From Treponema primitia ZAS-2 (GTDB lineage Bacteria; Spirochaetota; Spirochaetia; Treponematales; Breznakiellaceae), in the NCBI RefSeq assembly GCF_000214375.1, contig NC_015578.1, positions 3,472,001-3,536,000 of the forward strand: a DNA stretch of 64,000 nt, in the 5' to 3' direction. The notes beneath the pieces were generated by a model. That model saw nothing but the letters and a program-made list of their open reading frames with translations. It had not been told where the DNA came from and made no database searches. The translations under genes and the position numbers were made by a program. Positions 5,264 to 42,418 of the stretch are shown in pieces (position 1 is the stretch's first letter; each line of letters begins with the position of its first letter).

Positions 5264-5304
5264 AATAACAATCCTGCGTTTCAAAAATTCAAGGAACAGG
5301 CTTC

Positions 5305-25982: not shown

Positions 25983-27025
25983 ACAGCCCTGGCATCGCTG
26001 GCCGCGCCCCCGGCGGGGGCAGTTTTTTCAAGGCCGCTCCCAGCAACGTTTCCGCCACCTGCGCCAACGGAAGCGGCAGAAGCGGCCCGAATCCGGGGAT
26101 CGATCAGCACATACACGATGTCCACCACCAGGTTAAGCAGCAAAAACAGAGCCACCAGGAACATGATAATGCCCTGCACCAGGGGATAATCCGCCGACTG
26201 GATACCCTCGATAAGTAAAGCCCCGATACCACCCAGGGCAAACACGTTTTCCACCAGCACCGCCCCTATCACCATGGACCCGATTTGTATCCCCGCCACG
26301 GTAATCACCGGGATAAGGGTGTTTTTCAGACAATGGACCGCCAGGATACGGCGCCGGGGGGTCCCCTTGGCAGTCAGGGCCAGGGCGTAATTCGATTTCA
26401 GCTCTCCAATCATACGGTCCCGGGTAATCCGCCCCATGAGGGCAACCATGTTAAGGCTCAGGGCAAAGGCCGGCAAAGCCAGGTAGTAGAGGTTCTCCCC
26501 AAAATTGTGCCCCGCCCCAAAGGCCGGAAACCAGCGCAGCCTCAGGGCAAAGATCAGCATCAGCACAATGGCGTTGAGAAACACCGGGGAAGACACACAG
26601 AAAATCATAATCCCCGACACAATACGGTCCAGGATCGAGTCCCGCTTCACCGCGCAGAGCACCCCCGCCGGAATAGCCAGCAGCACCGCAAAGACCGCAC
26701 TCATCAGCACCAACTGAATCGTGGTAGGCAGCCGGGCTGCCAGCAGATAAGCCACACTCTGGCGGTGCTTAAAACTGTCCCCTAGATTGCCCCGGAATAC
26801 ATTAGTTATCCATATAAAGTACTGCCGGGGCAAACTCTGATCCAGGTGATACTGGGCAATCAAAGCCGCCCGTGTCTCATCGCCAATCCGCCGCCCATTG
26901 GTAATAGACGCCATAGGGTCCGAAGGGGTCAGGCGGATAAGAAAAAAGATCGCCACCGACACCACCAGCAGAATGGGGATGAGGACGAGAATCCGCTTGG
27001 CTATGTACCGGACTAAAAAGGCCAT
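25979..27025 (-). CDS. Dipeptide/oligopeptide ABC transporter permease, DppB/OppB type
   Basis: 348 residues opening with the DppB hallmark FLVRYIAKRILVLIPILLVVSVAIFFLIRLTPSDP and with the EAA-like loop ALTAKGTPRRRILAVHCLKNTLIP near residue 215. Six membrane helices are expected. The C-terminus runs about 30 residues past the usual end (Ala/Gly-rich, GAGGGNVAGSGLEKTAPAGG). It is the first gene of the BCDF operon and lies next to the left edge of the AT-richer island. Confidence 0.94.
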   Translation of the reverse strand: MAFLVRYIAKRILVLIPILLVVSVAIFFLIRLTPSDPMASITNGRRIGDETRAALIAQYHLDQSLPRQYFIWITNVFRGNLGDSFKHRQSVAYLLAARLPTTIQLVLMSAVFAVLLAIPAGVLCAVKRDSILDRIVSGIMIFCVSSPVFLNAIVLMLIFALRLRWFPAFGAGHNFGENLYYLALPAFALSLNMVALMGRITRDRMIGELKSNYALALTAKGTPRRRILAVHCLKNTLIPVITVAGIQIGSMVIGAVLVENVFALGGIGALLIEGIQSADYPLVQGIIMFLVALFLLLNLVVDIVYVLIDPRIRAASAASVGAGGGNVAGSGLEKTAPAGGAASDARAV

Positions 27026-27128
27026 TCTGTTTTACTAGCATGTCTCGGGGCTTTATTCAAGGATTGGCGACAGACTACCAGGGCAAAAGGGCGCCGCAGA
27101 GTCCGGGGAGGATTTTAGAGAGTACGCC

Positions 27129-27156
27129 TTGACGTCTTAATAACTTAAAGTATATT
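27129..27156 (+). promoter_or_regulatory. Promoter of the type I RM locus
   Basis: TTGACG (27129-27134), a 16-bp spacer and TATATT (27151-27156). It predicts a start near 27163 and supports hsdM translation from 27205. Confidence 0.5.
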
Positions 27157-27204
27157 TTGTTGCATGAACTTAAGTTTCACAATTTGCCAAGAGGTCAGCC
27201 GCAG

Positions 27205-28671
27205 ATGATAACAGGCGCGATTAAGAACAAAGTCGATAAAATCTGGACCGATATTTGGGCCGGCGGCATAACCAACCCCATAACCGTCATCGAGCAGCTT
27301 ACCTATCTCATGTTCATCCGTTCCCTGGACGAAAAAGAGCTGGAGAACGAGCAGTTCGAAAACACTGCCAAAGTGAAGATGGACAAAATCTTTCCCCGGT
27401 CAAAAGAAGGCCAGTCCATGCGTTGGAGCAAGTTCAAGGAACAGGACCCCCGTGAAATCTTCGACATCATCTCCCAGCGGGTCTTCCCTTTTATCAAAAA
27501 ATTGCAGGGTAAAGAGGAAACCGCCTTCTCCCGCTATATGGAAGATGCCATGTTTCTTATCCCCACCCCCCAGGTACTGCAAAAAATCGTCACCGGCCTG
27601 GACGATCTCTATCAGAATGACCTCGCCGGTCTGGACATGCAAGGCGACCTTTATGAGTATATGCTGGGCAAACTTTCAACCGCCGGTCAGAATGGCCAAT
27701 TCCGTACCCCCAAGCATATCCGTGAAATGATGGTCCAGCTAATGGCGCCCACCCCCAATGATCTAATATGCGATCCCGCCTGTGGGACCGCCGGCTTTCT
27801 GGTGTCCGCTGCCGAATATATCCGCACCCACTATGAATCGAAGATGACCACCAAGCAATGGAATTTGTTCGCCGGTGACATGTTTACCGGTTTTGATACC
27901 GACCATACCATGCTCCGCCTATCAGCCATGAACCTCATGCTCCACTCCATCACCCACCCGCAAGTGGAATATAAGGATAGCGTTTCAAAGCAGAATAAGA
28001 TCGCCGGTACATATGATATCGTACTCGCCAATCCGCCGTTTAAGGGAACCGTGGATGAGGAAAGTATCAATGATAATCTAAAGGCAGCGACCAACACAAA
28101 AAAAACAGAGCTTCTGTTTATCGCCCTTTTCCTCAGGCTGCTGAAAAAAGGCGGGCGCTGCGCCTGCATCGTACCCGATGGCGTTTTGTTTGGCTCCTCC
28201 AACGCCCACACCGCGCTCCGCAAGGAGCTTGTGGAAAACCATCAGCTTGGGGGGGTAATCTCCATGCCCTCCGGAGTGTTCAAACCCTATGCCGGAGTTT
28301 CGACCGCCGTACTGGTGTTTACCAAAACAGGCGCAGGCGGAACCGATAAAGTCTGGTTCTACGATATGCAGGCCGATGGTTTCTCCCTGGACGATAAGCG
28401 CAGCAGCATAAACAATAACGACATACCAGACATCGTAACACGCTTCCACGCGCTTGATAAAGAAAGCAAGCGAAAACGCACCGACAAGTCCTTCCTAGTA
28501 CCAAAAAAGGAGATTGTAGATAACGGATACGACTTAAGCATCAACAAATACAAAAAGACGATTACAAAAGCGGTTGAATACCCGCCTACAAGCGAAATTA
28601 TGGCAGGTTTGTTTGACTTGGAAAAAAACATAGCCAAAGGACTAAAAGAGTTGGAGGCGATGCTGAAATGA
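27205..28671 (+). CDS. hsdM: Type I restriction-modification DNA methyltransferase subunit
   Basis: 488 residues from the ATG at 27205 (the open frame reaches back to 27157, before the predicted transcript start). The N-terminal helical HsdM domain (VDKIWTDIWAGGITNPITVIEQLTYLMFIR) is followed by the N6-adenine methylase core with SAM-binding DPACGTAGFL near residue 190 and catalytic NPPF near 276. With two HsdM and one HsdS it methylates adenine in a bipartite target and also forms the restriction complex. Its stop overlaps the next gene by ATGA. GC content is visibly lower than in the flanking dpp genes, consistent with acquisition. Confidence 0.96.
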   Translation: MITGAIKNKVDKIWTDIWAGGITNPITVIEQLTYLMFIRSLDEKELENEQFENTAKVKMDKIFPRSKEGQSMRWSKFKEQDPREIFDIISQRVFPFIKKLQGKEETAFSRYMEDAMFLIPTPQVLQKIVTGLDDLYQNDLAGLDMQGDLYEYMLGKLSTAGQNGQFRTPKHIREMMVQLMAPTPNDLICDPACGTAGFLVSAAEYIRTHYESKMTTKQWNLFAGDMFTGFDTDHTMLRLSAMNLMLHSITHPQVEYKDSVSKQNKIAGTYDIVLANPPFKGTVDEESINDNLKAATNTKKTELLFIALFLRLLKKGGRCACIVPDGVLFGSSNAHTALRKELVENHQLGGVISMPSGVFKPYAGVSTAVLVFTKTGAGGTDKVWFYDMQADGFSLDDKRSSINNNDIPDIVTRFHALDKESKRKRTDKSFLVPKKEIVDNGYDLSINKYKKTITKAVEYPPTSEIMAGLFDLEKNIAKGLKELEAMLK

Positions 28672-28892
28672 TCCATTGCGCAGAAAAAGAAATGGATTTT
28701 TGTATTTTTCTCATTCACAAACTTGCAGAATCCTGGGGCAAATCCACGCCGGAGGCTTATAAAATAATTTCGGACTCAAATATTCTGGATGAGTATATTA
28801 TCCCCTGTTTCGATACGCTACACACCCTTGGCGCCGAATATTTAGTAGAAGATGTGACCGAATTCGTCCGTGAAAAGGGTGTAGCACTATGA
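28668..28892 (+). CDS. DUF3791-type small protein
   Basis: 74 residues: a helical N-terminus (KEMDFCIFLIHKLAESWGKSTPEAY) and the DUF3791 ending FDTLHTLGAEYLVEDVTEFVREKG. Its start overlaps the hsdM stop (ATGA) and its stop overlaps the DUF3990 gene by 4 bp. DUF3791 genes are regularly found immediately before DUF3990 genes; an antitoxin or chaperone role is plausible but unproven. Its place inside an RM operon is unusual. Confidence 0.75.
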   Translation: MIHCAEKEMDFCIFLIHKLAESWGKSTPEAYKIISDSNILDEYIIPCFDTLHTLGAEYLVEDVTEFVREKGVAL

Positions 28893-29371
28893 AAGTATAT
28901 CACGGGTCATCAGCCGTGGTGAATAAACCAGATATAAAATTCTCCAGGAAAAATCTTGATTTTGGAAAAGGTTTCTATGTGACTTCATACCAGGAACAAG
29001 CAGAAAATTGGGCGAAACGAAAGGCTCTGCGGAAAGGAACGGCGCCTATTGTAAGTGCATATACCTTAAATGAAGATTTTGATAGGTTTCAAATTCTGCG
29101 ATTTGAGCAGGATAATAAAGCTTGGATTGACTTTGTATGTGCCTGTAGAAGTGGCAAAGATATATACCGGAACTATGATATTATCATTGGGAGTGTGGCA
29201 AATGACAAAGTATATACCGCAGTCGATATGTATTATCGGGGAATATGGGATATTGAGCGAACGCTTTCTGAAATAAAATATTATAAAATGAATGATCAAT
29301 ACTGCCTCATTACGCAGCAATTCATTGATGCAAAATTGTTGTTTATTGATTCCTATGAGGTTGCCCTATGA
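28889..29371 (+). CDS. DUF3990 protein, possible ADP-ribosyltransferase-fold toxin
   Basis: 160 residues starting with YHGSSAVVNKPDIKFSRKNLDFGKGFYVTSYQEQAENWA, the DUF3990 signature. The YHGS, DFGKGFYVT and Gln-Ala spacing resembles the H-Y-E/Q layout of small ADP-ribosyltransferase-like domains (comparison to that superfamily is from memory). Typical partners are the short proteins encoded on each side. I infer a toxin-like effector; no activity can be shown from sequence. It overlaps both neighbours by 4 bp. Confidence 0.7.
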   Translation: MKVYHGSSAVVNKPDIKFSRKNLDFGKGFYVTSYQEQAENWAKRKALRKGTAPIVSAYTLNEDFDRFQILRFEQDNKAWIDFVCACRSGKDIYRNYDIIIGSVANDKVYTAVDMYYRGIWDIERTLSEIKYYKMNDQYCLITQQFIDAKLLFIDSYEVAL

Positions 29372-29619
29372 GCGATACCCATCCCAAGCAGGCCGATTTA
29401 GAGAGCCTTCGTAAAGAGTCTCTTGAAAAAGACATTATTGCAATTATTGCCAACAAAGCAAATATTGATGTCAGGGTAGCGATGGACATTTATTTTCACA
29501 GTAGCCTTTCTGTCCAGATTGACGGTGGCGTATATGGCATTCAGTATCTTGATGCGCGGTATCTTGCGGATGATCTGATGGAAAACGAGAGCGAATTGTT
29601 TGCGAAATTGGTAGATTGA
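29368..29619 (+). CDS. Small partner protein of the DUF3990 cassette
   Basis: 83 residues, helical: DIIAIIANKANIDVRVAMDIYFHSSLSVQ then GVYGIQYLDARYLADDLMENE. The 'YGIQYLD..YLA.DL' ending recurs in short proteins encoded after DUF3990 genes. It overlaps the DUF3990 gene by 4 bp and stops 1 bp before hsdS, so all genes from hsdM to hsdS are likely one transcript. It is a candidate antitoxin. Confidence 0.68.
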   Translation: MSDTHPKQADLESLRKESLEKDIIAIIANKANIDVRVAMDIYFHSSLSVQIDGGVYGIQYLDARYLADDLMENESELFAKLVD

Positions 29620-29620
29620 A

Positions 29621-30736
29621 ATGAGTAAATGGGAAAAAGTACGATTGGGAGATTTAACCAAAATAAAAACTGGTAAATTGGATGCTAATGCCAGTTCCAA
29701 TGATGGGGAATACCCTTTTTTTACGTGCTCAAAAGAGCCATTAAAAATATCTTCATACAGCTATGATTGCGAATGTGTTTTAGTCGCAGGCAATGGCGAT
29801 TTAAATGTAAAATACTATAATGGAAAATTTGACGCTTATCAACGAACCTATATTATCGAAAGTATCGATAAAAATAAACTTTTTGTCCCATACCTATATT
29901 TATATTTAAGTGACTATGTTGATACACTACGTGGATTATCAATAGGTGGTGTTATAAAGTACATAAAATTAGGTAATTTAACAGATGCAGCTATACCAAT
30001 CCCACCATTGAACACGCAAAAACAGATCGTCGCTATACTAGACAAAGCAAATCTTCTGATTGAATCACGCAAACAACAGCTTGCACAGCTTGACCTACTG
30101 GTCAAATCCCGGTTTGTCGAGATGTTTGGGGACCCGGTGACTAACCCGATGGGGTGGGATGTTAAAAAATTGAAAAATTTATATAAGGTAAGATCCAGTA
30201 AACGTATTTATCAGAATGAACAAGTATCCGAGGGTATACGATTTTTACGGGTATCGGACTTAGTACGAAAAATCCTTGACGGCATTGATTCTTGTGATCT
30301 CTATATTTCCGAAGAACAGTATATGCGTTTTTTGGATAGTGGACTTGTACCTAAAGCAGAAGATATTTTAGTTACATCAAGGGGAACTTTGGGATTGTGC
30401 TATATAGTTCAGCCGTCTGATAGATTTTATTTTCAAGATGGGATGATAAGTTGGCTTGAAAAGCAAGGAATTGAAATTGAATCAATATACGTTTATTACC
30501 TGTTTGGAACATATGGGTTCAGGCAACAAATGGAACAATTACCAACAGGCACAACAGTGAGTTACTTGTCTTTAGAAACTCTAGGTAATTTGGAAATAAT
30601 GGTCCCCCCTCTCCCCATCCAAAATGCCTTCGCTGCCTTCGTCCACCAAGTCGACAAATCGAAATTTGAAATACAAAAGGGACTAAAACAGATGGAAATT
30701 CAGTATAATGCCCTTATGCAGCAGTATTTCGGTTAA
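29621..30736 (+). CDS. hsdS: Type I RM specificity subunit (expressed copy)
   Basis: 371 residues with two target-recognition domains (about 1-130 and 180-330) separated by a conserved helix (IVAILDKANLLIESRKQQLAQLDLLVKSRFVEMFGDPV) and closed by a second helix (FAAFVHQVDKSKFEIQKGLKQMEIQYNALMQQYFG). This is the normal HsdS layout that reads each half of a bipartite target. The second domain is bounded by two repeats, 30102-30159 and 30618-30667, copied further downstream around an alternative domain. It starts immediately after the DUF3990 cassette. Confidence 0.93.
   Translation: MSKWEKVRLGDLTKIKTGKLDANASSNDGEYPFFTCSKEPLKISSYSYDCECVLVAGNGDLNVKYYNGKFDAYQRTYIIESIDKNKLFVPYLYLYLSDYVDTLRGLSIGGVIKYIKLGNLTDAAIPIPPLNTQKQIVAILDKANLLIESRKQQLAQLDLLVKSRFVEMFGDPVTNPMGWDVKKLKNLYKVRSSKRIYQNEQVSEGIRFLRVSDLVRKILDGIDSCDLYISEEQYMRFLDSGLVPKAEDILVTSRGTLGLCYIVQPSDRFYFQDGMISWLEKQGIEIESIYVYYLFGTYGFRQQMEQLPTGTTVSYLSLETLGNLEIMVPPLPIQNAFAAFVHQVDKSKFEIQKGLKQMEIQYNALMQQYFG
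30102..30159 (+). repeat. hsdS recombination repeat R1, copy 1
   Basis: 58 bp identical except for one base to 31791-31848, same orientation. It codes for KSRFVEMFGDPVTNPMGW at the conserved inter-domain helix, just before the second recognition domain. Confidence 0.9.
30618..30667 (+). repeat. hsdS recombination repeat R2, copy 1
   Basis: 50 bp identical except for one base to 32298-32347, same orientation. It codes for QNAFAAFVHQVDKSKF, closing the second recognition domain. Confidence 0.9.
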
Positions 30737-30795
30737 TCTAATCATTTTCCTTCAATGGCGGTATGCCAAATATAATCACGGAAAGGAGAATGAAA

Positions 30796-31788
30796 ATGAA
30801 AGAGGCTCTTATCATCGAAATCGAACAAGGCATGATCACGGTATTGGACAATGCCCAAATGGAACACCTGCATAAAGTCCTAATCCATTGCCTGTACAAT
30901 GTCACCGTAACAAAAAATACTGGTAATCCGGTGCAGGAGGAACAGCCGAATGAGGTTATGCTTGATTCATTTCTCGCTTCCAAGCGTGTGGAGGGATGCT
31001 CTGAGAAGTCCCTGAAGTATTACCGCTCTACCATACAGAATATGCTGAATTCTGCCAGTAAAACGGTAAAACATATGACTACTGATGATTTGCGGCAATA
31101 TCTTGCGGATTATCAAAACAAAAACCGTGCCGGAAAAGTGACACTTGATAATATCCGGCGTATCCTGTCCAGTTTCTTTTCATGGCTGGAGGATGAAAAC
31201 CATATCCTCAAAAGCCCGGTACGGCGCATCCATAAGATAAAAGCGGGACAGACCGTCAAGGAAACGTACTCAGATGAAGCATTGGAATCGATGCGCGATA
31301 ACTGTGCTTCAATTCGGGATTTAGCGATTATTGACCTGTTGGCTTCTACCGGGATGCGTGTTGGCGAGATGGTGAAGCTAAACCGGAATGATATCGATTT
31401 TGCAAACCGTGAGTGCGTTGTCCTTGGTAAAGGAGAAAAAGAACGGCCGGTGTACTTTGATGCGAGAGCGAAAATACATTTACAAAACTATCTTAACAGC
31501 CGGCCTGATGATAATTCAGCCCTATTCGTTTCATTGATAAAGCCATTTAATCGGCTCGAAATCAGTGGCGTAGAGATACGACTTCGAGAGCTGGGAAAGC
31601 AATTAAATATCCCAAAAGTACATCCACACAAATTCCGGCGTACCTTGGCTACAAGGGCAATTGATAAAGGAATGCCAATTGAACAGGTTCAGCAGCTTTT
31701 AGGCCATCAGAAAATTGATACCACCCTGCAATATGCGATGGTAAGCCAGAATAATGTAAAACTGTCGCACCGAAAGTATATCGGCTGA
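30796..31788 (+). CDS. Tyrosine recombinase (phage-integrase family)
   Basis: 330 residues from the ATG at 30796 (AAGGAG 7 bp upstream). An N-terminal SAM-like core-binding domain (about 65-160) precedes the catalytic domain with Arg in TGMRVGEMVKL (about residue 187), Lys in GKGEKERPVYF, HxxR in HPHKFRRTL (about 276-281), His in LLGHQKI and nucleophile Tyr in TLQYAMVS (about 312). Its stop is 2 bp before repeat R1 copy 2. Located between an hsdS gene and a spare hsdS half, it is the obvious catalyst for recombination that changes RM specificity. Confidence 0.93.
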   Translation: MKEALIIEIEQGMITVLDNAQMEHLHKVLIHCLYNVTVTKNTGNPVQEEQPNEVMLDSFLASKRVEGCSEKSLKYYRSTIQNMLNSASKTVKHMTTDDLRQYLADYQNKNRAGKVTLDNIRRILSSFFSWLEDENHILKSPVRRIHKIKAGQTVKETYSDEALESMRDNCASIRDLAIIDLLASTGMRVGEMVKLNRNDIDFANRECVVLGKGEKERPVYFDARAKIHLQNYLNSRPDDNSALFVSLIKPFNRLEISGVEIRLRELGKQLNIPKVHPHKFRRTLATRAIDKGMPIEQVQQLLGHQKIDTTLQYAMVSQNNVKLSHRKYIG

Positions 31789-31790
31789 TC

Positions 31791-31848
31791 TCAAATCCCG
31801 GTTTGTCGAGATGTTTGGGGACCCAGTGACTAACCCGATGGGGTGGGA
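31791..31848 (+). repeat. hsdS recombination repeat R1, copy 2
   Basis: Matches 30102-30159 with a single G/A difference. It starts directly behind the recombinase stop codon and opens the alternative recognition domain. Confidence 0.9.
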
Positions 31849-32440
31849 GCATGGCACTATTCGAGATATTGTCACTGAAGTCAAGTATGGTACAAGTAAA
31901 CCATCAGTAGATGGGGGGAGCTACCCATATTTACGAATGAACAATATAACCTTTGGAGGGCAACTCGATATAACCGATATGAAATACATAGATTTACCCA
32001 ATAATGAGATTGAAAAATATATTGTTCGGAAAGGTGATGTCCTTTTTAACCGTACAAATAGCAAGGAACTGGTAGGAAAAACTTGTGTATTTAATCTTGA
32101 TGAACCGATGGTTATTGCTGGCTATATTATCCGCATAAGACTCAATGATAAAGCTATCCCGATATACCTTTCCACTGTCCTCAATTCAGATTATGGTAAG
32201 TTAACTTTAAACTTGATGTGTAAGAAAATTATTGGTATGGCTAACATCAATGCTCAAGAGCTACAAGATATAGCGATACTAATACCGCCCAAAGACCTCC
32301 AAAACGCCTTCGCTGCCTTCGTCCACCAAGTCGACAAATCGAAATTTTCTGATCGGAAATGGGTGGAAACTTTTGCTCCCTCGCATACACTGCTGTCCGA
32401 TTTAATCGGTAAGCATCAAAAAATCCATTTGCCTGAGTAA
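31811..32440 (+). pseudogene. hsdS: Silent hsdS half gene with alternative recognition domain
   Basis: An open frame from an ATG inside repeat R1 codes for MFGDPVTNPMGW, a target-recognition domain unrelated in sequence to domain 2 of the expressed hsdS (VTEVKYGTSKPSVDGGSYPYLRMNNI to LQDIAILIPP), and the closing FAAFVHQVDKSKF helix from repeat R2. It then diverges for about 30 residues (SDRKWVETFAPSH onward) and stops. There is no N-terminal domain and no good ribosome-binding site, so it is most likely a storage cassette expressed only after recombination with the hsdS upstream. Confidence 0.85.
32298..32347 (+). repeat. hsdS recombination repeat R2, copy 2
   Basis: Matches 30618-30667 with one T/C difference; similarity ends sharply at 32347. 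Confidence 0.88.
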
Positions 32441-32552
32441 AAATGACCCGTTTTTGGAATATTTGGTCGATTTTCAGTAATTTGTTCTTTAACCAAAGCA
32501 TCAAACATGGTATAACTATAAGGTATTTGGGCTACCGAGTGATAAAGGATGG

Positions 32553-35500
32553 ATGGCTGTGTCGAACTTTGAGTTCCTTCGGCAACAAAACGAATACACC
32601 CTGTTTTCGCCTGCAGCAATAGAGGCCGAGAAGGTTTATGCTACATCCTCAGCCATGTGCGCTGTTGGCTGCCGGAAAGCCCTCGAATTGGCAGTAAAGT
32701 GGGTTTACTCAGCCGATAAAAACATTAACATGCCCTATAAGGACAACATCCAGTCCCTCATCCATGAGCCGTCCTTTCGCTTTGCCGTGGATAGTAAAAC
32801 ATGGGGCAAACTTTCCTACATCATTAAGCTGGGTAATCTCGCTGTGCATACCGAACGAGCGGTAGATTCAGGCGATGCGTTAACCGCGCTGAAAGGTCTT
32901 TTTGAGTTTATCGATTGGATTGATTATTCCTATGGTTCAAAGTATGCAGAACGCCGTTTTGATGAGGCCCTCATTCCCAAAGGCAAAGTGGTTATTGTCA
33001 CCAAGAAAATCAAGGAAACTCAGAGCCTTCTGGACGAGAAAGATTCTGAAATTAAGCGGCTGCAAAAGATCATAGAGGACATGGCCCCCCAATACACCGC
33101 CGGGAAAGAACAGCACCAGCAAGATCGAACATTCAAGGCCGATGATATTTCCGAGTTCAAGACCCGTAAAATCTACATTGATGTGGATTTAAAACTTATG
33201 GGCTGGCGTTTTTCCGGCGCCGATGCCGATGTCATTGAAGAATATGAAGTTAACGGTATGGCGGACGTATTGGACCAGAAAGGCTATGCCGACTATGTCC
33301 TGCTGGGTAAAGATGGGCTTCCTCTTGCGGTAATCGAAGCTAAACGTTCCAGCAAGGATGCGAATACCGGACGCAAACAAGCCTCATTATATGCCGACTG
33401 TCTGGAGCGGCAGTTTAAGCGTCGCCCAATGATTTTCACTACCAATGGCTTCGAGACCTACTTCTGGGACAATCAATCATCTCCCCAGCGGAAGGTGAGC
33501 GGCATATTTAGCAAGGACAATCTGCAAAAGCTGATGAACCGCCGGATTGATCGTAAAAACCTTGATGAGATTCCTATTAATCCGACAATAGCAGGACGGC
33601 CGTATCAAATAGCTGCCATTCGAGCCGTCGGCGATAGTATCAAAGCGGGCTTCAGAAAACAATTGTTGGTTATGGCCACCGGATCGGGAAAGACGAGAAC
33701 TGCTGCGGGGCTGGTAGATGTCTTAAGCCGTGGGGGTCACGTTACAAACACCCTGTTTCTGGCTGACCGTAGGGCCTTGGTCAAACAAGCAAAAGATGCA
33801 TTCAAAAACTACTTGCCCGATATGTCTCTGTGCAATCTGCTTTCCAACAAGGATGACAGAACAGCGCGGATTGTTTTCTCCACCTATCCAACCATACTCA
33901 ATGCAATCGACACCGCGAAGAATGCCGATGGCTTGAAACTTTTCACTCCCGCCCATTTTGATCTTATCATCGTGGACGAAAGCCACCGAAGCATTTTTAA
34001 GAAATACCGTGCCATCTTCGAATATTTTGATGCCCTCACCCTCGGTTTGACAGCCACCCCAAAAACCGATGTGGATAGGAATACCTATGAATTTTTCGAA
34101 ATGGAGCATGGTGTGCCAACCTATGCCTACGACTATGAGACTGCCGTGTATACTGACCATGTTTTGGTACCCTACTATAATATCGAAGTGAAAACAAAGT
34201 TTTTGGAAGACGGCATTGTGTACGATGAGCTTTCCGATGAAGACAAAAAACGATATGAGGATGATTTCACGGAAGATGATACCTTGCCCGATTTCATTCC
34301 TGCGCCCGCGCTCAACAAGTTCGTCTTCAACCAGCAAACCGTGGATACCGTGTTGCAAGACTTGATGGAGCGGGGTATTAAGATTGAGGGTGGGGACCGC
34401 GTTGGTAAATCTATCATCTTCGCCCAGAGCAAGCTTCATGCCGAATACGTTCTGGAACGTTTCAATAAATTGCATCCGAATTTTAAAGGCGGATTCGCCC
34501 AGCGGGTAATTTGCGATGATAGCTATTCACAAGAAATTATCGAAGATTTCAAAGTTCCTGAAAAAGAGCCACGTATTGTGGTGTCGGTTGATATGATGGA
34601 CACTGGCATTGATGTGCCGGAATGCGTTAACCTGGTCTTTTTCAAAAAAGTGCGTTCAAAAACAAAGTTCTGGCAGATGATCGGCCGCGGCACCCGCATT
34701 TGCATCGGTTTGGAATGCCTGGACAATAAAGATGGCGCTTACACCGACAAGCGGCGATTTTTCATTTTTGACTATTGCGGCAACTTTGAATATTTCCGCG
34801 AGCATACCGAGGGCTTTGAAAGCACGGATACAAAATCCCTTTCAGAATCCATATTCAGCAAAAAAATTCGCCTTGCCGTGTGTTTGCAGGATAGCATTTA
34901 TGCAGGAGATGACTATCAGTCTTTTAGAAACAACCTGACTGCTGGCTGCCAATCCCAGATAGCCGCGCTCAACCAGGAGCTGGTATCCGTTAAACTCAAA
35001 CGGCAATATGTGGAAAAATACAAACTCCCTTCTGCGTATGTATTTATAAGTGAAGGCGATAAAGGCGACATCATAAAACACCTTGCACCCCTAGTGCTCC
35101 TGGATGACGCGGACGCAGGAGGTTCGTCCGACGAAGCCGCCAAACGGTTCGATAATTTTATGTACGGCATGATGCTGGCGGATATAGAGCATCTACCAAG
35201 CTTCAACTATGCCCGGAAACAGCTTTCCGATATTGCGCTCCTGTTTGAGAAAAAGATCAGCATACCACAGGTAAAGGCAAACATTGCTCTCATCAAAACT
35301 ATCAACACCGATGATTTTTGGGACAGCAACAATATCCTGGCCCTTGATGAAGTGCGCCAAACATTGCGCGGTTTAATGAAATTCCTCGTGGAAACGAGCG
35401 GCCCTAAAACAATCATCACAAACTTAACTGATCCAGTGATTTCCTGGGACGTAGGTGAGCCCATGCCCCCGGCATACGATTTTGAAGATTACAGGAAGAA

Positions 35501-35948
35501 GGTCAATCGCTACATCGAAGAACACGCCGCCTCCATGTCCATACACAAGCTAACCCACAATATCCCCCTGGGCTCAAAAGATTACCAGGAATTAGAGAGG
35601 GTCCTAACCATCGAACTCGGCAGCCGCGAGGACTACCAGCGTGAATATGGCGATACCCCCTTCGGCCTGCTCATCAGAAAAATTGCAAAACTCAATCACG
35701 AGGCCGCCATGCAAGCCTTCTCTCAATTCATCAATGACCAATCACTTAATCATAACCAGATTGAGTTTATCCAAAAGGTCATTAACCATGTCGAGCAAAA
35801 CGGTTATATGGAAGATTTGAAAGATTTAACCAAGCCGCCTTTTGACAAACCGATAAGCTTCGTGAAGCTTTTTGACCCAAAGCGGCAGTCGCAGTTGATG
35901 GATATCATACGGACAATTAAGGAAAATGCCGTAACAGTTGCAGCGTAA
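32553..35948 (+). CDS. hsdR: Type I restriction endonuclease subunit
   Basis: 1131 residues. The N-terminal region (about 1-130, CAVGCRKALELAVKWVY) is DUF4145-like, followed by a coiled coil. The HSDR_N nuclease has a D-ExK centre (YADYVLLG and AVIEAKRSS, about residues 246-264). The translocase motor has Walker A MATGSGKT near 374, DESH near 474, LGLTATP and motif VI MIGRGTRICIG. The C-terminal EcoEI-type region binds HsdM. It cleaves unmodified DNA after ATP-driven translocation. GGA precedes the ATG. About 110 bp separate it from the silent hsdS cassette, so it may have its own promoter. Confidence 0.95.
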   Translation: MAVSNFEFLRQQNEYTLFSPAAIEAEKVYATSSAMCAVGCRKALELAVKWVYSADKNINMPYKDNIQSLIHEPSFRFAVDSKTWGKLSYIIKLGNLAVHTERAVDSGDALTALKGLFEFIDWIDYSYGSKYAERRFDEALIPKGKVVIVTKKIKETQSLLDEKDSEIKRLQKIIEDMAPQYTAGKEQHQQDRTFKADDISEFKTRKIYIDVDLKLMGWRFSGADADVIEEYEVNGMADVLDQKGYADYVLLGKDGLPLAVIEAKRSSKDANTGRKQASLYADCLERQFKRRPMIFTTNGFETYFWDNQSSPQRKVSGIFSKDNLQKLMNRRIDRKNLDEIPINPTIAGRPYQIAAIRAVGDSIKAGFRKQLLVMATGSGKTRTAAGLVDVLSRGGHVTNTLFLADRRALVKQAKDAFKNYLPDMSLCNLLSNKDDRTARIVFSTYPTILNAIDTAKNADGLKLFTPAHFDLIIVDESHRSIFKKYRAIFEYFDALTLGLTATPKTDVDRNTYEFFEMEHGVPTYAYDYETAVYTDHVLVPYYNIEVKTKFLEDGIVYDELSDEDKKRYEDDFTEDDTLPDFIPAPALNKFVFNQQTVDTVLQDLMERGIKIEGGDRVGKSIIFAQSKLHAEYVLERFNKLHPNFKGGFAQRVICDDSYSQEIIEDFKVPEKEPRIVVSVDMMDTGIDVPECVNLVFFKKVRSKTKFWQMIGRGTRICIGLECLDNKDGAYTDKRRFFIFDYCGNFEYFREHTEGFESTDTKSLSESIFSKKIRLAVCLQDSIYAGDDYQSFRNNLTAGCQSQIAALNQELVSVKLKRQYVEKYKLPSAYVFISEGDKGDIIKHLAPLVLLDDADAGGSSDEAAKRFDNFMYGMMLADIEHLPSFNYARKQLSDIALLFEKKISIPQVKANIALIKTINTDDFWDSNNILALDEVRQTLRGLMKFLVETSGPKTIITNLTDPVISWDVGEPMPPAYDFEDYRKKVNRYIEEHAASMSIHKLTHNIPLGSKDYQELERVLTIELGSREDYQREYGDTPFGLLIRKIAKLNHEAAMQAFSQFINDQSLNHNQIEFIQKVINHVEQNGYMEDLKDLTKPPFDKPISFVKLFDPKRQSQLMDIIRTIKENAVTVAA

Positions 35949-36055
35949 GCCCCATAATAGCTTCCAAAAAGTGTCGCCACTTCTGTTATCATCACCGTTT
36001 TTTGGTGATTTTCAGGGTTTCTGGTCAAAATGGGTTTGCCAGGGAAAAACGGGGC

Positions 36056-36084
36056 TTGACTTCTCTGCAAATTTGTGTATACAC
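36056..36084 (+). promoter_or_regulatory. brnTA promoter with palindromic operator
   Basis: TTGACT (36056-36061), a 16-bp spacer and TATACA (36078-36083). The perfect palindrome GTGTATACAC (36075-36084) lies over the -10, as expected for autoregulation by a ribbon-helix-helix antitoxin. Confidence 0.6.
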
Positions 36085-36100
36085 TATTGTAGGGCATTGA

Positions 36101-36424
36101 ATGGGTAAAACTGTCACCAGTACAGATGGGCTTTTTGAGTGGGATGAAGACAAGAGTAGGATCAATAAGGAACTACATGGTTTATATTTCAATGAAATAT
36201 TGCCCGCTTTTAATGATCCCTATATTCTTGAATTATATGACGAAGCCCATTCAACTGTTGAAGAGATCCGGTATAGGGGGTTAGCGGAGTTGTAGGATTT
36301 TATTATTCTGTACCTGTCATATACAGAACCGGGCAGTGGCCGAACAAGGATCATTTCGGTACGGTCTGCTGAGCCCTTTGAGGAGAGAATGTATTATGAA
36401 TGGCGTAAAAACTTTAACACCTGA
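36101..36424 (+). pseudogene. brnT: BrnT-family toxin with in-frame amber codon
   Basis: The open part (64 residues) has the BrnT start FEWDEDKSRINKELHGLYFNEI and NDPYILELYDE. It ends at a TAG (36293-36295), but the same frame goes on with DFIILYLSYTEPG and TRIISVRSAEPFEERMYYEW, the conserved C-terminal strands of BrnT, to a TGA at 36422-36424. A single-base change (CAG or TGG to TAG) would explain it. BrnT is an RNase-like toxin. Translation to the TAG would lack the catalytic C-terminal Arg residues, so the toxin is probably dead unless the codon is read through. It overlaps brnA by 29 bp. Confidence 0.8.
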
Positions 36425-36671
36425 AAGGATTGCCGAAATAAAGGCATTTAAGAACACCGATTTTTCTGATTGTCCGGTATTAACCGAGGAAGAACTGAAA
36501 AAGATGCGGCCGAAGCATCCTGAGTATTTCAAGCCGGTTAAGAAGGCCGTTCAGATTCGCTTGGATGCCGATGTTTTGGCTTGGTTCAAAGCTTATGGAA
36601 AAGGGTATCAAAGCCGGATTAATGCGGCGCTTCGGGAGCTCATGTTACAGACCATCGAAAGGCATGAATAG
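36396..36671 (+). CDS. brnA: BrnA-family antitoxin
   Basis: 91 residues from the ATG at 36396 (GAGGAG upstream). The C-terminal part, KKAVQIRLDADVLAWFKAYGKGYQSRINAALRELM, is the BrnA ribbon-helix-helix DNA-binding region; the N-terminus (EIKAFKNTDFSDCPVLTEEELKKMRPKHPEYF) wraps the toxin in known pairs. It neutralises BrnT and represses the operon. The gene begins inside the 3' end of brnT and appears intact although the toxin carries a stop codon. Confidence 0.88.
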   Translation: MNGVKTLTPERIAEIKAFKNTDFSDCPVLTEEELKKMRPKHPEYFKPVKKAVQIRLDADVLAWFKAYGKGYQSRINAALRELMLQTIERHE

Positions 36672-36932
36672 GACAAAAATTGGTGGACGAATGTAGGCGC
36701 TATTGACTAGGTGAGCTAATTTCCTCAACACCCAGACACTACCCTTTGCCGGGAGTATTTGACTAATGATACACAAACGTAGCAAAAAGATGTCTGGTAC
36801 TCTTTCTTCTGTTATAAACACTTTTCCTACAGCCTCATTATGTGTCTTGCTCGTATCGCTTAAAATATGTTGCATGGAAAAACATATGTCCGGTATGTTT
36901 GGTTTCACAATCCTAGGTTTCCGGGCCGGGGT

Positions 36933-37052
36933 TCAGCCCTGACGGGGTATAACTTTTGCGACACTTGCCTGGGGAGATGTTGCCGGAGCCCCCTGTGTAG
37001 CCTTAGTCACCAATGATGGTTGGTAGCTTTTTATATTGGCATTATTGTCCAT
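36933..37052 (-). CDS. Possible 39-residue peptide
   Basis: A short ORF with AAGGAG 9 bp before an ATG, coding a small Ser/Ala/Gln/Pro-rich peptide (starts MDNNANIKSYQPS, ends VAKVIPRQG). An upstream open stretch in another frame (37149-37042, containing RINYEDVEFIELVEKK) overlaps its start and lacks an ATG. No family recognised; it could be a chance ORF or remnant. Confidence 0.25.
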   Translation of the reverse strand: MDNNANIKSYQPSLVTKATQGAPATSPQASVAKVIPRQG

Positions 37053-37281
37053 TTGTGCTTTCTCCTTCGACTTTCTTTTCAACGAGTTCAATGAACTCTA
37101 CATCTTCATAATTTATTCGTGTTGAGGGGTGTAATACCCAAGAACCCGTTTACACGAGGGAGCTTTAGGGCGTTTAAAGGGGTATTAAACCCCGAATACA
37201 AATACCTTGTGAAAACAACATACCTCGCCCTTTATTAGGCTAAAATAATGAAATATGGGTGATTTTTCGATATTTTTGTCA

Positions 37282-37303
37282 GGGGCGCCATGAATTGACA
37301 CTC
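37282..37303 (+). repeat. 22-bp repeat, copy 1
   Basis: GGGGCGCCATGAATTGACAC then TC. It matches the reverse complement of 39943-39964 and 41726-41747 at about 19 of 22 bases, so copy 1 faces the other two. Confidence 0.65.
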
Positions 37304-37481
37304 TTGGCTGGTAGGATGTCTTGATTTTGGAATGACGCTGACAATACTTGCAGTATTATCAAACACTGTTTATTCGCGTACCAATTAGTGTATCCAATAC
37401 TGCAATGCGAGGGCTTGCGTTTCACAGGGAAACAGTTTATGATACCAGAAGACAAGGTACCGTTAAACCAAGGAGGATTGT

Positions 37482-38456
37482 ATGGGTAACATTACTCAAT
37501 TTGAAAAAGCGATTGCCGATTCACAGGGGAAACCCGGGGGCTTTCCGCGGGATATCCACATTTCATTTACCGGAAACGGCAAGGAACTCCATGCCGAACT
37601 TGTCGGCAAATTCAGCAAAAAGGATTTTAGGCGCTTTGACCCGTGGATACTTGCCTGTATTGCCGAGGCGAAACAAAAATATGACACAGAAGTTTTGCGC
37701 GTAAATTTCAGAATAGACAAACCGAAAAAAGCGGAAACGCTTTTTGATTTAAATTTTGAATCCCTGCGGCGGCGCATTTCTTTTTTAAGCATCAACAATC
37801 CGAATATCACATTTACATTATCGCTTAATAAACAGGATATTGTTTTATATGATGAAACCACACTGTTTCACCGGCCCGATAATGAGGTAATTCACACCAA
37901 AGTAGCTAAGCGCAGTGATGATGATAAGCCGGGACTTTTAGAAAAATCTTTCCAGGCTTTCTTGTATGGAAAGGGATTAGAAACCAGAACCAATGACCGC
38001 CTTGCAATTCTGGGAGAGGATTTTTACCAAATGAAAGGAAAAGATGTGGGGGTTCTTCGTGAATTTCCTACAGGCGTTTTTAACAGCAAGGTAAGTGAAT
38101 CTACCCGTATAATGCCTACCGAAGCAGTTGATATTGTAACCCTCAATAAATTGGGAAACCTGGCAGTTATTGAATTGAAACTTGATAATTCTGAATTGGA
38201 AGTAATCTCGCAGATATTGGATTACGGTCTTTATTTTAGCTGCTATCGTGATTTAGTGTTGAAAATGCCATCTATAACTGAAATCTTTGATGCGGCTCAA
38301 ATAACCAAATTACGAAAGGTGGGCATTTCCTGTTATGTCGTAAACAACTATTTTCATCCTCGCTTTGATGATATTCTTCGATTCTATAGTATTAAAACAA
38401 AGGATTACGGATTTTATCTGAAAAAGGTTGTTTTAGGAGCAACCACTGAAATTTAA
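37482..38456 (+). CDS. PD-(D/E)XK-type nuclease, accessory
   Basis: 324 residues, AAGGAGG before the ATG at 37482. The C-terminal half reads like a PD-(D/E)XK domain of the DUF91/NucS or Shedu kind: PTEAVDIVTLNKLGNLAVIELKLDNSELEVISQILDY, with Asp at about 217 and Glu-x-Lys at about 231-233. The N-terminal half (about 1-150) is unrecognised and begins with FPRDIHISFTGNGKELHAELVG. The gene is 10 bp upstream of the metallo-beta-lactamase gene, so the two form an operon. Likely a DNA- or RNA-cutting defence effector; the family assignment rests on the motif only. Confidence 0.72.
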   Translation: MGNITQFEKAIADSQGKPGGFPRDIHISFTGNGKELHAELVGKFSKKDFRRFDPWILACIAEAKQKYDTEVLRVNFRIDKPKKAETLFDLNFESLRRRISFLSINNPNITFTLSLNKQDIVLYDETTLFHRPDNEVIHTKVAKRSDDDKPGLLEKSFQAFLYGKGLETRTNDRLAILGEDFYQMKGKDVGVLREFPTGVFNSKVSESTRIMPTEAVDIVTLNKLGNLAVIELKLDNSELEVISQILDYGLYFSCYRDLVLKMPSITEIFDAAQITKLRKVGISCYVVNNYFHPRFDDILRFYSIKTKDYGFYLKKVVLGATTEI

Positions 38457-38466
38457 TCAGTAATGA

Positions 38467-39777
38467 ATGGTTATGACCTTTAAAATTCACCGGGGCACAA
38501 AAGAAATAGGCGGTTCCTGCGTGGAAGTGTGGACAGACACCACCCGCATAGTTATCGACTTTGGTATGCCCCTGGTGAATGTTGATGGTTCCCCATTTTA
38601 TTCAAAGAAGATACAGAACATACCGCCGGATGAATTAACCACCCAGGGGATTTTACCCGATATACCCGATTTGTTCAGTGATAGTCCAAAGACTGCCCTG
38701 ATAATATCCCATGCCCATCAGGACCATTATGGACTGATTAACCATGTATCTAATAAGTGTAAGGTCTACCTGGGGAAGGCAACCCATAGGTTGATTGAAT
38801 TAACCAATACTTTTACTAATCAACAGTGGGCTATACAGAATCCCTGTTATTTTGAATCGGGTAAACCCTTTGCCATTGGGGACATTACCGTCATTCCCTA
38901 TCTGATGGATCATGCCGCCTTTGATGCTTATGCGTTTATGATACAAGCAGATGGGAAGTCCCTGTTTTATAGCGGCGATTTCCGTATTCATGGCAGGAAA
39001 ATGAAAGCCTTTGACTGGTTCAGCTATCATGTGGATAAGGGTGTTGACTACCTGTTGCTCGAAGGGACTTCCCTTAGCAGAAAGGGTGTAAGCTTCCCTA
39101 CAGAATCCGAAATTGAATCCGCCTTGGTGGAGACGTTTAAGGAAACCGATGGAATAAACCTTGTGTATTGCTCAGGGCAAAACATCGACCGGCTTGTATC
39201 AGTTTACCGGGCCTGCAAACGAAGGGGGAAAACATTTGTAATGGACTTTTATATTGCAAACATTCTGGCGGATTTAGCCGCCCTGGGATACAATCTGCCC
39301 TATCCGTCTGAAAACTTCCCGGAAATAAAAGTACGGTTCCCCTTTCGCCTTACCAAATTGGTCATTGCCCAGGGGAAGGGGGAATTGGCGTACCGGTTCA
39401 AGGAATATAAAATAACCACACCGGAAATCAAGGCCCAATACAAAAATGTGGTGGTAACTGTCCGCCCGAGTATGACAAGCGACATCACCAATTTCAAAAA
39501 CCTGTCCGGCGGGGTCCTTATCTATTCACAGTGGGATGGATACAAAAAAGAGAAGGCCGTAAAGGATTTTCTTGAGTACCTTGAATACAAAGGAATGACT
39601 ATCAAGGATATTCATACATCCGGCCACGCTGACCTTGAGGGTCTCAAGAAAATGGTAGAAGTATTACAGCCAAAACACATCGTCCCAATTCATACCTTTG
39701 AGGGCAATGAATATGCGACAGTTTTTGAGAGTTTCGCGGTGCAGATTGTGAATGATAAGGAAGAAATTGTACTGTAA
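38467..39777 (+). CDS. Metallo-beta-lactamase fold hydrolase, RNase J/CPSF-like
   Basis: 436 residues. Metal-binding motifs are SHAHQDHYG (HxHxDH, about residues 81-89), a later His in MDHAAFDAYAF, Asp in YSGDFRIHG, and the C-terminal RMMBL-like segment HTSGHADLEGLKKMVEVLQPKHIVPIHTFEG. This is the layout of RNase J-like exonucleases. It is shorter than RNase J (about 550) and lacks that enzyme's C-terminal domain, and it contains an unusual insert around KVRFPFRLTKLVIAQGKGELAYRFKEYK. Paired with the nuclease gene just upstream; an RNA- or DNA-degrading role is inferred. Confidence 0.8.
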   Translation: MVMTFKIHRGTKEIGGSCVEVWTDTTRIVIDFGMPLVNVDGSPFYSKKIQNIPPDELTTQGILPDIPDLFSDSPKTALIISHAHQDHYGLINHVSNKCKVYLGKATHRLIELTNTFTNQQWAIQNPCYFESGKPFAIGDITVIPYLMDHAAFDAYAFMIQADGKSLFYSGDFRIHGRKMKAFDWFSYHVDKGVDYLLLEGTSLSRKGVSFPTESEIESALVETFKETDGINLVYCSGQNIDRLVSVYRACKRRGKTFVMDFYIANILADLAALGYNLPYPSENFPEIKVRFPFRLTKLVIAQGKGELAYRFKEYKITTPEIKAQYKNVVVTVRPSMTSDITNFKNLSGGVLIYSQWDGYKKEKAVKDFLEYLEYKGMTIKDIHTSGHADLEGLKKMVEVLQPKHIVPIHTFEGNEYATVFESFAVQIVNDKEEIVL

Positions 39778-39942
39778 AGTATTTTGGCGTTTTTGGGCTG
39801 GTTAATAAAACTGTTACTTTCAAGACCTGAAATTGCTTCATCAAGGGTTAATAAATCATGTACAGAAAGTCAGGATGGCAAACAACAATTCTGCTTCCTG
39901 GCTCTATAAAGCGTACCGGAAAGGAACTTTCCCACCCCTTCA

Positions 39943-39964
39943 GGGTGTCAAAACATGGCGCTCC
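39943..39964 (-). repeat. 22-bp repeat, copy 2
   Basis: On the minus strand GGAGCGCCATGTTTTGACAC then CC. It spans the stop codon of the leucine-rich-repeat gene (coding SAMF-stop) and is inverted relative to copy 1 and direct relative to copy 3. Confidence 0.7.
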
Positions 39965-41660
39965 CGAAATCATAATCGTCGTCCAAAAAAGACGAACCCC
40001 TGAATAATTTTTCCTCTTCAAAGGCTCCATTTGAAAACCGGAATGATGCGAGGGTCGATAATTTGCTGATACATTCGGGAAAATGTGTAATTTTTGTGCC
40101 GCTTAAATCCAATTTTTCAAGGGATGAAAGATATACAAAAGAATCCGGCAGAGAACTTATATCAGTATCCTTCAAGAGCAATATTTTAAGTGATTTCATA
40201 TTGCCTATAGACAAGGGTAATTCAGTAATTTTAACCCCATTCAAATTAAGTTTTTCCAGCGAACAAAGCTTCTCCATGGATTGGGGTAATTCAGTAATGG
40301 GGGTATCATTCAAATATAATATTTTTAGTGATGATAATTCACCAATGCTTTCGGGTAATGATGAAATATCGGAGTCATTTAACAGAAGTACCTTAAGGGA
40401 TCGAAGCCTGCCTATCGTTTCAGGCAGAATAGTAATAGTTTTTTCGTTGTGCAAGCTGAAAAAAGAACCAATATCCAAAACCTGTAATGCTGAAAGGTCA
40501 CCAATAGTTTCCGGAAGAATTCTGAGATTTCTGGTATTATTTAAATTTAATTTTTTCAGTGATGCAAGATTTCCAATAGACTCAGGTAATGCCATTATAG
40601 ATGAGTAGCTTAAATCAAGATTTGTGAGATTTGTGAGCCTGCCTATGGAATCCGGAAGTACCTCTATTTTTGATCCCGATAAATCAAGGGTGATAAGCTG
40701 CGAGAGCTTTCCGATACTCTCGGGCAGAACCTTTATTTCCGTTGATCTCAAATCAAGATTAGTAAGCTGTGTAAGATTGCTAATATCCGGCAATTCGATT
40801 ATCGGACATTCATGTAAGTCTATTTCTCTTAGGGACGTACAATCATTTATTGAATACGGCAAAGACACTGTAAAATTACGAAAAGCTGCAAGGCTTTCTT
40901 CTGATGAATACCGGCCTATACAAGGTTGAATAATACGCAGTTTCTTTAACATTCCAAGTTTGCCAATTGATACCGGGAGATCCGATATCGGACACAGATT
41001 TATTGACAATGTTTCAAGTTTGTTCAGATTTCCAATCCACTCCGGTATTTTGGTTATTTTTAGATTGTAAAGATCCAATTCTTTTAGGCAAGGAAAATTT
41101 GCAAGCCATTCCGGCAGCGTGCGTATTTCAGCTACACCAATACTTAGTTTTTCCAGCAGCTTAAGGCTTTGAATCCAAACCGGGATTTGTGTTATCCCGG
41201 TATTCCATAGGTATACTATTTTTAATTTGTTCAGTATTTTCAGGCGGTCAGGGAATACTGTCAGGCCTTCCCCATGTAAAGTAAGTTCGGTTATACTTGT
41301 AGTGGTGAACCATAAATCGTCGAAGGATTCAAATAAAGATGCAAGCGATTCATTGGTTAGGTCATAAAAATTCAACGAAGATAATTTTCCTGTCCATTCA
41401 GGCATTTTTTTTATTCCCGTTGATCTAATGGTCATGCTGTTTAATGCAGGAAGGTTTTTAATACAATCCGGAATTATTGTTATATTTTCTCCGCACAATT
41501 CTATATGGGTAAATTGCGCCAGTTCATCCCAATGCCCTTCGTAGGGTTTAAATTCAGCCGCCAGGGACTCATCGGTCTTGGAAAATAAATTCAAGTTTGC
41601 AGTGTTTTCCTTAAGATATTCACTAATTCCCATCCGGGCAGAAAAATCAACACCCTTCAT
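39948..41660 (-). CDS. Leucine-rich repeat protein, cytoplasmic
   Basis: 570 residues from the ATG at 41660 (AGGAGG 8 bp upstream). After a 30-residue N-terminal segment it consists of about 20 leucine-rich repeats of 23 residues with the plant/bacterial-like consensus LxxLPxSIGxLxxLxxLxLxxT (for example residues around LPESIGKLSQLITLDLSGSKI). There is no signal peptide or membrane anchor, so it is probably a cytosolic protein-binding scaffold or sensor. It is followed by a copy of the 22-bp repeat, and another copy lies 65 bp before its start, at the end of the regulator gene. Confidence 0.88.
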   Translation of the reverse strand: MKGVDFSARMGISEYLKENTANLNLFSKTDESLAAEFKPYEGHWDELAQFTHIELCGENITIIPDCIKNLPALNSMTIRSTGIKKMPEWTGKLSSLNFYDLTNESLASLFESFDDLWFTTTSITELTLHGEGLTVFPDRLKILNKLKIVYLWNTGITQIPVWIQSLKLLEKLSIGVAEIRTLPEWLANFPCLKELDLYNLKITKIPEWIGNLNKLETLSINLCPISDLPVSIGKLGMLKKLRIIQPCIGRYSSEESLAAFRNFTVSLPYSINDCTSLREIDLHECPIIELPDISNLTQLTNLDLRSTEIKVLPESIGKLSQLITLDLSGSKIEVLPDSIGRLTNLTNLDLSYSSIMALPESIGNLASLKKLNLNNTRNLRILPETIGDLSALQVLDIGSFFSLHNEKTITILPETIGRLRSLKVLLLNDSDISSLPESIGELSSLKILYLNDTPITELPQSMEKLCSLEKLNLNGVKITELPLSIGNMKSLKILLLKDTDISSLPDSFVYLSSLEKLDLSGTKITHFPECISKLSTLASFRFSNGAFEEEKLFRGSSFLDDDYDFGSAMF

Positions 41661-41725
41661 AAAATAATCCTCCTGAAGCATTCTCGGGAATAAGTTTGAT
41701 TCCCATTATATAATATATCCTCCAG

Positions 41726-41747
41726 GGGTGTCAAAACATGGCGCCCC
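41726..41747 (-). repeat. 22-bp repeat, copy 3
   Basis: On the minus strand GGGGCGCCATGTTTTGACAC then CC. It covers the stop codon of the HTH regulator (coding GAMF-stop), exactly as copy 2 covers the stop of the LRR gene. Confidence 0.7.
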
Positions 41748-42150
41748 TATTAGTAAGTTTATCCAGCCCTTTCGGTATTAATGCCATAATCTTTTGACGT
41801 ATAGCGTTAATTGTCGAAGCCTTTTCAAGTTTCTGCAATTTTTCATGGTACTCAAGGAGTGTCAATAATGTCTCAATCTCCTGGGCTGTCAGGCCCGGAT
41901 TGAGGATAGCCATATTGGGAAGCTTAAGAACGTAGGAATCCATGAGCCGGTATACCTTTTCAACCCTCGGCCCTGATTGCTCGTCAATGAGGGGAAGCCC
42001 GAGTTCTTCCAGAGCCTCCAGGAGCCGGAAGGCGGTGCGCCGGGAGATACTGAGGTGTTCCATGAGGGTTTTGATAGTCGCCCCTTGAGGAGAAGCCAGG
42101 AGATTAATTGCGGCAAGGAATTTTATGGAGTTGGCAAAGGGGTTAGCCAT
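41731..42150 (-). CDS. HTH regulator, WYL-type N-terminus, probably truncated
   Basis: 139 residues from the ATG at 42150 (GGAG upstream). Residues about 8-75 form a winged helix (FLAAINLLASPQGATIKTLMEHLSISRRTAFRLLEALEELGLPL) like those of WYL-domain regulators; the remainder (NPGLTAQEIETLLTLLEYHEKL, IRQKIMALIPKGLDKL) matches the linker that normally leads into a WYL domain. Family members are about 300 residues, so the sensory half is absent. The end coincides with a 22-bp repeat copy, which suggests that insertion or rearrangement cut it. It lies behind one copy of the 145-bp leader and may control the AAA+/vWA pair. Confidence 0.72.
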   Translation of the reverse strand: MANPFANSIKFLAAINLLASPQGATIKTLMEHLSISRRTAFRLLEALEELGLPLIDEQSGPRVEKVYRLMDSYVLKLPNMAILNPGLTAQEIETLLTLLEYHEKLQKLEKASTINAIRQKIMALIPKGLDKLTNRGAMF

Positions 42151-42235
42151 GGCGGGTCTCCAGGGCATAATATGATGATAGTGTATAGGGTAAGATTGAG
42201 AATTTAGCATAGACTGATGAAGGCAATAAAATACC

Positions 42236-42382
42236 CATATATAATATAAGTAGGGAGCAGATCGGTAATAGTGAACGAGAATTTGAAAATTCTTAAAGAA
42301 AATGCAAATATTTTACTTAACTAACGTTAAACGCTATAGGTATAGTGCAAATGCGCAGGTAGAACGCCATATATAGTGTACC
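42236..42382 (-). repeat. 145-bp conserved leader, copy A
   Basis: About 85-90% identical to 45295-45439 by eye. It lies upstream of the regulator gene. Conserved internal inverted repeats are AGAATTT-GA-AAATTCT and TTAAC-TAAC-GTTAA. It could hold a promoter, operators and a structured 5' leader. Confidence 0.8.
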
Positions 42383-42418
42383 AGAAACACCTGGGATGAA
42401 CACACACCATGGCGTTCT
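42361..42418 (-). terminator. Inverted repeat at the vWA gene end
   Basis: AGAACGCCAT (42361-42370) and ATGGCGTTCT (42409-42418) pair perfectly across a 38-bp loop, starting at the vWA stop codon. Position fits a terminator or processing hairpin, but no T run follows. Confidence 0.35.

Follow-up and report, generated by a model that had tools for sequence, protein, structure and literature searches.

How might a type I restriction-modification (RM) system exchange its recognition domains when the alternative domains lie in the same direction, with a recombinase gene between them? The question is raised by a locus of Treponema primitia ZAS-2, lying in a window of 64,000 nucleotides (contig NC_015578.1, positions 3,472,001 to 3,536,000), the whole stretch of DNA that we analysed and to which all coordinates refer. 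The evidence discussed below makes it very probable that this is a tvr-type type I RM locus of the "2+1" form, in which the recombinase would swap two domains, 2a and 2b, through the excision and re-entry of a circle.

The Operon and Its Genomic Setting

According to the ORF list and Pfam matches, the repeats lie within a complete type I RM operon with every gene on the + strand. The gene for the methyltransferase subunit, hsdM (27157..28671, +; N6_Mtase 1.9e-63, HsdM_N 1.9e-15), precedes hsdS (29621..30736, +; Methylase_S 1.2e-40 in two stretches, Specificity_I), which codes for a fixed TRD1, then domain 2a, and then the conserved tail. Judging from gene order, this hsdS presumably occupies the expressed slot. 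Downstream are a tyrosine recombinase homologous to TvrR (30796..31788, +; 330 aa, Phage_integrase 1.8e-33, catalytic motifs present), a stored hsdS half made of domain 2b and a foreign tail (31811..32440, +; Methylase_S 4.2e-10), and hsdR, coding for the restriction subunit (32553..35948, +; ResIII, EcoEI_R_C, HSDR_N). A first-pass annotation, made from the DNA letters, had placed hsdS, recombinase, and alternative half in one direction, and the matches to the three (Methylase_S, Phage_integrase, Methylase_S) are indeed all on the + strand.

The recombinase most likely starts at 30796, rather than at 30763 where a longer ORF could begin, because AGGAGA lies just upstream and alignments to the relatives begin at residue 12 of the longer ORF. 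A gap of 59 bp separates it from the end of hsdS. No terminator-like site was found on the + strand of this gap, and the recombinase may be co-transcribed with hsdS. A genome-wide search for second copies of the recombinase, of R1 (see following), and of domain 2b returned none that was close.

Between hsdM and hsdS lie the genes of a DUF3990 protein (28889-29371, +; DUF3990 7e-51) and of its 83-aa partner (29368-29619, +). The pair (28889..29619, +) corresponds to the PADLOC candidate module PDC-M13 (PDC-M13B 2.2e-55, PDC-M13C 8.6e-7), is inserted outside both predicted circles, and was not found between hsdM and hsdS in the closest relatives, L005 and L006. From the RM operon on, GC content drops within 27000-44000 to 0.37-0.49 (0.37-0.48 in the operon), against about 0.58-0.60 beside it, and a close recombinase was found in none of 58 sampled relatives. 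Because of these two observations the RM locus was probably acquired from elsewhere, and the low-GC stretch (27000-44000) suggests an acquired island. The genes 3′ of hsdR (36336-39777, +) include one for a BrnA-type antitoxin (2.2e-19), one for a 324-aa protein weakly matching PDC-S11, and one for a metallo-beta-lactamase-fold protein with an RMMBL domain; these are possibly further defence genes.

Two Direct Repeat Pairs on One Kind of Core Site

Two pairs of direct repeats are by a wide margin the longest in the interval 28.0-34.5 kb. The copies of R1 (30102..30159 and 31791..31848, +) are 58 bp long and identical at 57/58 positions, the second beginning 2 bp past the stop codon of the recombinase gene, and the copies of R2 (30618..30667 and 32298..32347, +) are 50 bp long and identical at 49/50. 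The repeat search thus returned exactly the positions and single mismatches given in the first-pass annotation. The same is true of the lengths of the bracketed domains, 458 bp for 2a (30160-30617) and 449 bp for 2b (31849-32297), and their description as unrelated holds, since significant protein similarity between them is absent (E 0.16). Inverted repeats in 28.0-34.5 kb are limited to short imperfect pairs, the longest of 21 nt at 81%. A 19-mer of R1 (≤3 mismatches) has two matches in the window versus 0.01 expected, and the 15-bp end of R2 has two versus 0.16 expected. The 24-bp start of R1 (≤3 mismatches) has no further match in the 4.06-Mb genome.

R1 and R2 do not form separate, independent repeat systems; both are attached to one kind of core site. 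The start of R1 and the end of R2 share CAAATC-N4-TTT (general form CAAA-N6-TTT), present four times in the locus, always in one direction (30103, 30655, 31792, 32335). In the first copy of R1 the core is CAAATCCCGGTTTG (30103-30116), and in the first copy of R2 it is ACAAATCGAAATTT, at the right end. AAA and TTT enclose the hexamer TCCCGG in both copies of R1 (30107-30112 and 31796-31801) and TCGAAA in both copies of R2 (30659-30664 and 32339-32344). R1 is the downstream half and R2 the upstream half of the domain cassettes, each joined to one core. R1 and R2 also have an 8-bp inverted match, TTTGTCGA, which we set aside.

Predicted Products of Recombination

Tyrosine recombinases in general require matching crossover sequences (e.g., Cre, Flp, and lambda Int), which makes exchange of like with like the natural inference. 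The resident recombinase would pair R1 with R1 and R2 with R2, with strand exchange within the hexamer of the CAAA-N6-TTT core. One exchange would produce a circle of 1689 or 1680 bp with one C-terminal recognition domain and the recombinase on it. If the circle re-entered at the same site, the original locus would be restored, and if at the other, 2a and 2b would be swapped. HsdS would consist of the fixed TRD1 and either domain, and therefore the targets of modification and restriction would change together.

In silico, exchange between the R1 copies gives a circle of 1689 bp (30107..31795) with domain 2a, the hsdS tail, and the recombinase, and leaves an hsdS of 376 aa in which domain 2b is followed by a foreign 30-residue tail instead of the normal one. 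Exchange between the R2 copies gives a circle of 1680 bp (30659..32338) with the hsdS tail, the recombinase, and domain 2b, and leaves an hsdS of 379 aa with domain 2a and, again, that foreign tail. When the circle re-enters at the other site, the length of the locus is unchanged and the result is an hsdS of 368 aa with 2b and the normal tail, 2a being then stored. Every like-with-like product has an open hsdS frame and an intact recombinase, whereas a mixed exchange of R1 with R2 produces a half HsdS of 187 aa and a 552-bp circle devoid of recombinase. From the like-with-like products, the locus would therefore be, if active, a two-state target switch with excised intermediates. The first-pass annotation suggested that re-entry at R1 or R2 could give more arrangements; two C-terminal domains allow one new stable arrangement, because entry at the same site recovers the original and entry at the other swaps the domains. 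No alternative arrangement of the locus was seen in the one genome available, and the same-genus and related genomes looked at for one carry no close recombinase. We infer that the recombinase acts on the R1 and R2 sites, that the locus switches in T. primitia ZAS-2, and that methylation changes with it.

A locked or relic locus, having inherited the anatomy of switching but with a silent recombinase or dead sites in this strain, would present the same organization. Some natural tvr variants fail to shuffle (RMV1, without full TERs), and a locus that was probably acquired, as the GC fall and the 0/58 relatives with a close recombinase indicate, may lack the regulation of its source. However, the recombinase is open, with its catalytic motifs and with AGGAGA before its start, both repeat pairs have identical hexamers, and hsdM, hsdS, and hsdR are complete. 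Such a relic is thus unlikely.

Locus Layout Follows Recombinase Ancestry

We fetched 80 relatives by their recombinase, located the hsdS genes and repeats in each, and built a maximum-likelihood tree of the 81 recombinases. One branch splits this tree by layout (bootstrap 100, SH-aLRT 98). On one side are 33 rows, among which 27 are same-strand, 5 incomplete, and 1 inverted (L007). On the other are 48 rows, 41 of them inverted, 3 incomplete, and 4 scored direct, these last (L041, L042, L054, and L064) being truncated by contig ends. Layout therefore follows the ancestry of the recombinase. The same-strand side spans Bacillota, Bacteroidota, Spirochaetota (Treponema bryantii, L034), Deferribacterota, and Synergistota, and the closest kin of the window recombinase among the 80 relatives are those of L005 and L006 (81-82% identity). 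In most direct loci R1 lies 2-8 bp behind the recombinase gene. The sole inverted locus of the direct clade, L007, has direct-type cores, and its recombinase-hsdS unit is flipped relative to hsdM-hsdS.

Comparison with the Pneumococcal tvr Locus

The departure of the recombinase with its circle had been presented as an unusual self-limiting design, but it is not undescribed. The mechanism of the tvr locus (SpnIV) was proposed in 2014 (PMC4263131), and excision and reintegration via recombinase-carrying circles were shown experimentally in 2018 (PMC6265443). In pneumococcus, outward-facing PCR revealed the circles, the 5′ domain was not exchanged, shuffling was largely dependent on TvrR and on two direct repeat types with a common core, and switching was reversible in culture (PMC6265443). 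By analogy, these experiments and the open frames of the predicted products support what the first-pass annotation had suggested, namely that the recombinase circle would be excised at R1 and would re-enter at R1 or R2. Part of pneumococcal excision is independent of TvrR (PMC6265443), and the window recombinase need not, therefore, be the sole agent.

The two systems are one-strand type I operons of the "2+1" form, in the order hsdM, hsdS, recombinase, stored TRD, and hsdR, with two direct repeat types on a shared core, all in one orientation. Identity between the window and Streptococcus tvr loci is 60.5-67% for the recombinase, 56-59% for HsdM, and 40-41% for HsdR. The window recombinase and those of three Streptococcus loci (L108-L110) belong to the same direct clade (support 99/94). 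These loci contain on one strand hsdM, hsdS, a TvrA-like gene, a Doc-like gene (Fic/DOC 3.1e-14), the recombinase, and the stored TRD, with hsdR seen in two of the three. L108 and L110 have two repeat types, of 30 bp and 69-70 bp, both with the window-type core. Locus layout and gene families indicate that L108-L110 are tvr loci and their recombinases TvrR.

There are also differences. The tvr locus has the TvrAT pair and an attenuator, whereas the window lacks TvrAT and has neither an attenuator between hsdS and the recombinase nor room for one, so that regulation differs between the two. Neither the window nor the 80 fetched relatives have a TvrA or TvrT homologue; such genes were seen only in L108-L110, with a lone TvrT-like ORF in L106. 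We counted TvrAT as a regulatory accessory, not as part of the defining mechanism. The DUF3990 pair, between hsdM and hsdS and outside the circle, is another feature in which the window differs from tvr. In conclusion, homology to tvr, a system established by experiment, gives the mechanism good support, but the mechanism is not new. What is new here is the core hexamer, the split between direct and inverted clades, and the signs of circle-sized units among relatives. In the literature found, excision and reintegration of hsdS are described for pneumococcus alone.

Hexamer Conservation and Traces of Movement

In the curated direct-type loci, whose sites were chosen by protein-motif pattern and then by hand, a procedure that favours look-alike sites, both copies of a repeat have the same hexamer in 30/30 loci (R1) and 26/26 loci (R2). 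Across loci there are nine distinct hexamers for R1 and seven for R2. The triplet on the fixed side, in contrast, differs between copies in many loci (16/30 left of R1, 14/26 right of R2). The identity profile rises to 1.00 at the R1 hexamer and drops past the R2 hexamer. One would expect identical hexamers and drifting flanks if the DNA between hexamers moved and the DNA outside stayed, which points to exchange in the hexamer.

The R1 hexamer is different from the R2 hexamer in every direct locus. There is about an even chance that this reflects a two-key register code, with common recombinase-binding arms and different hexamers allowing only like sites to recombine. Domain swaps would then be confined to the correct half of hsdS, no domain would be lost on a recombinase-free circle, and the direct-site recombinases would make up a cross-phylum branch distinct from the inverting one. 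Active avoidance of equal R1 and R2 hexamers has no statistical support, as chance alone would produce few coincidences and the residues encoded at the two sites are not the same.

Relatives also bear traces of movement. The same cassette occupies the expressed and the stored slot in L022 and L051 (582 bp at 99.8% and 567 bp at 100%), the TRD stored in L108 is the one expressed in L110 (98.6% identity), and several further related cassettes are in opposite slots across different species. L126, a contig from a viral collection, has all hsdS parts on one strand and its recombinase in the direct clade. It has two recombinase copies within positions 3421-6781 of that contig, in a direct duplication of 1,688 bp at 99.94%. 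The repeat unit of 1,673 bp is one circle's worth and begins exactly where the R1 hexamer begins. Such a tandem unit would result if one circle had inserted into an intact sister copy; it may also have arisen as an artefact of assembly or by ordinary tandem duplication between R1 copies.

Could domains be swapped by RecA-dependent recombination or gene conversion at the 58- and 50-bp repeats, with the recombinase playing little part? Repeats of this length suffice for homologous exchange, their edges coincide with the ends of homology in either model, the step at the hexamer included, and gene conversion would also be expected to duplicate cassettes as in L022 and L051. Yet a recombinase gene is present, with R1 close behind it in most direct loci, and layout tracks the recombinase clade. 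Furthermore, many relatives have repeats of only 18-30 bp and yet identical hexamers, and tvr circles arise in recA mutants and mostly require TvrR. This makes the RecA route very unlikely. One-way capture, in which the recombinase and 2b are an inserted element by which domains are gained or replaced in the course of evolution, would fit the related cassettes in different slots of distant species and the extra tandem unit in L126. Matched sites at both ends, however, make excision and re-entry symmetrical, and tvr is reversible in culture (PMC6265443); we regard capture without a reversible switch as extremely unlikely. Circle excision and re-entry by the resident recombinase is thus the reading that we retain.

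Inverting Systems and the Extent of Switching by Excision

The ivr/cod systems (PsrA) and the surveyed inverted loci have in common with the window a tyrosine recombinase inside a type I locus and the reassortment, in the window predicted, of hsdS halves. The core of the surveyed inverted loci, TAAACGATAATTTAG, is of the same AAA-N6-TTT form. In inverting systems, however, the stored hsdS is on the opposite strand, the cores are inverted, and the switch is by inversion, whereas the hsdS parts of the window are all on the + strand. The recombinases of the surveyed inverted loci are across the 100/98 branch from that of the window. Assignment of the locus to the inverting ivr/cod type was ruled out by the common strand of its hsdS parts and by its having only short imperfect inverted pairs.

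A large survey of type I systems that switch was based on a search for inverted repeats (PMC7394358). The present data indicate that direct-site loci occur in several phyla with a recombinase clade of their own, and epigenetic switching by excision is therefore probably undercounted. The mapped hexamer provides a search pattern for more such loci and a handle for bench tests of site choice, and the window locus helps to show that the tvr mechanism is widespread and where exchange happens. The annotated plasmid records that we retrieved are either fragmentary or of inverted type, and hence uninformative on alternative states of the direct type. Among them, the Lactococcus plasmids pJM2A (L149) and pJM1A (L150) share the recombinase gene and hsdM but differ in how the hsdS parts are arranged, and are apparently two states of one inverted-type locus.
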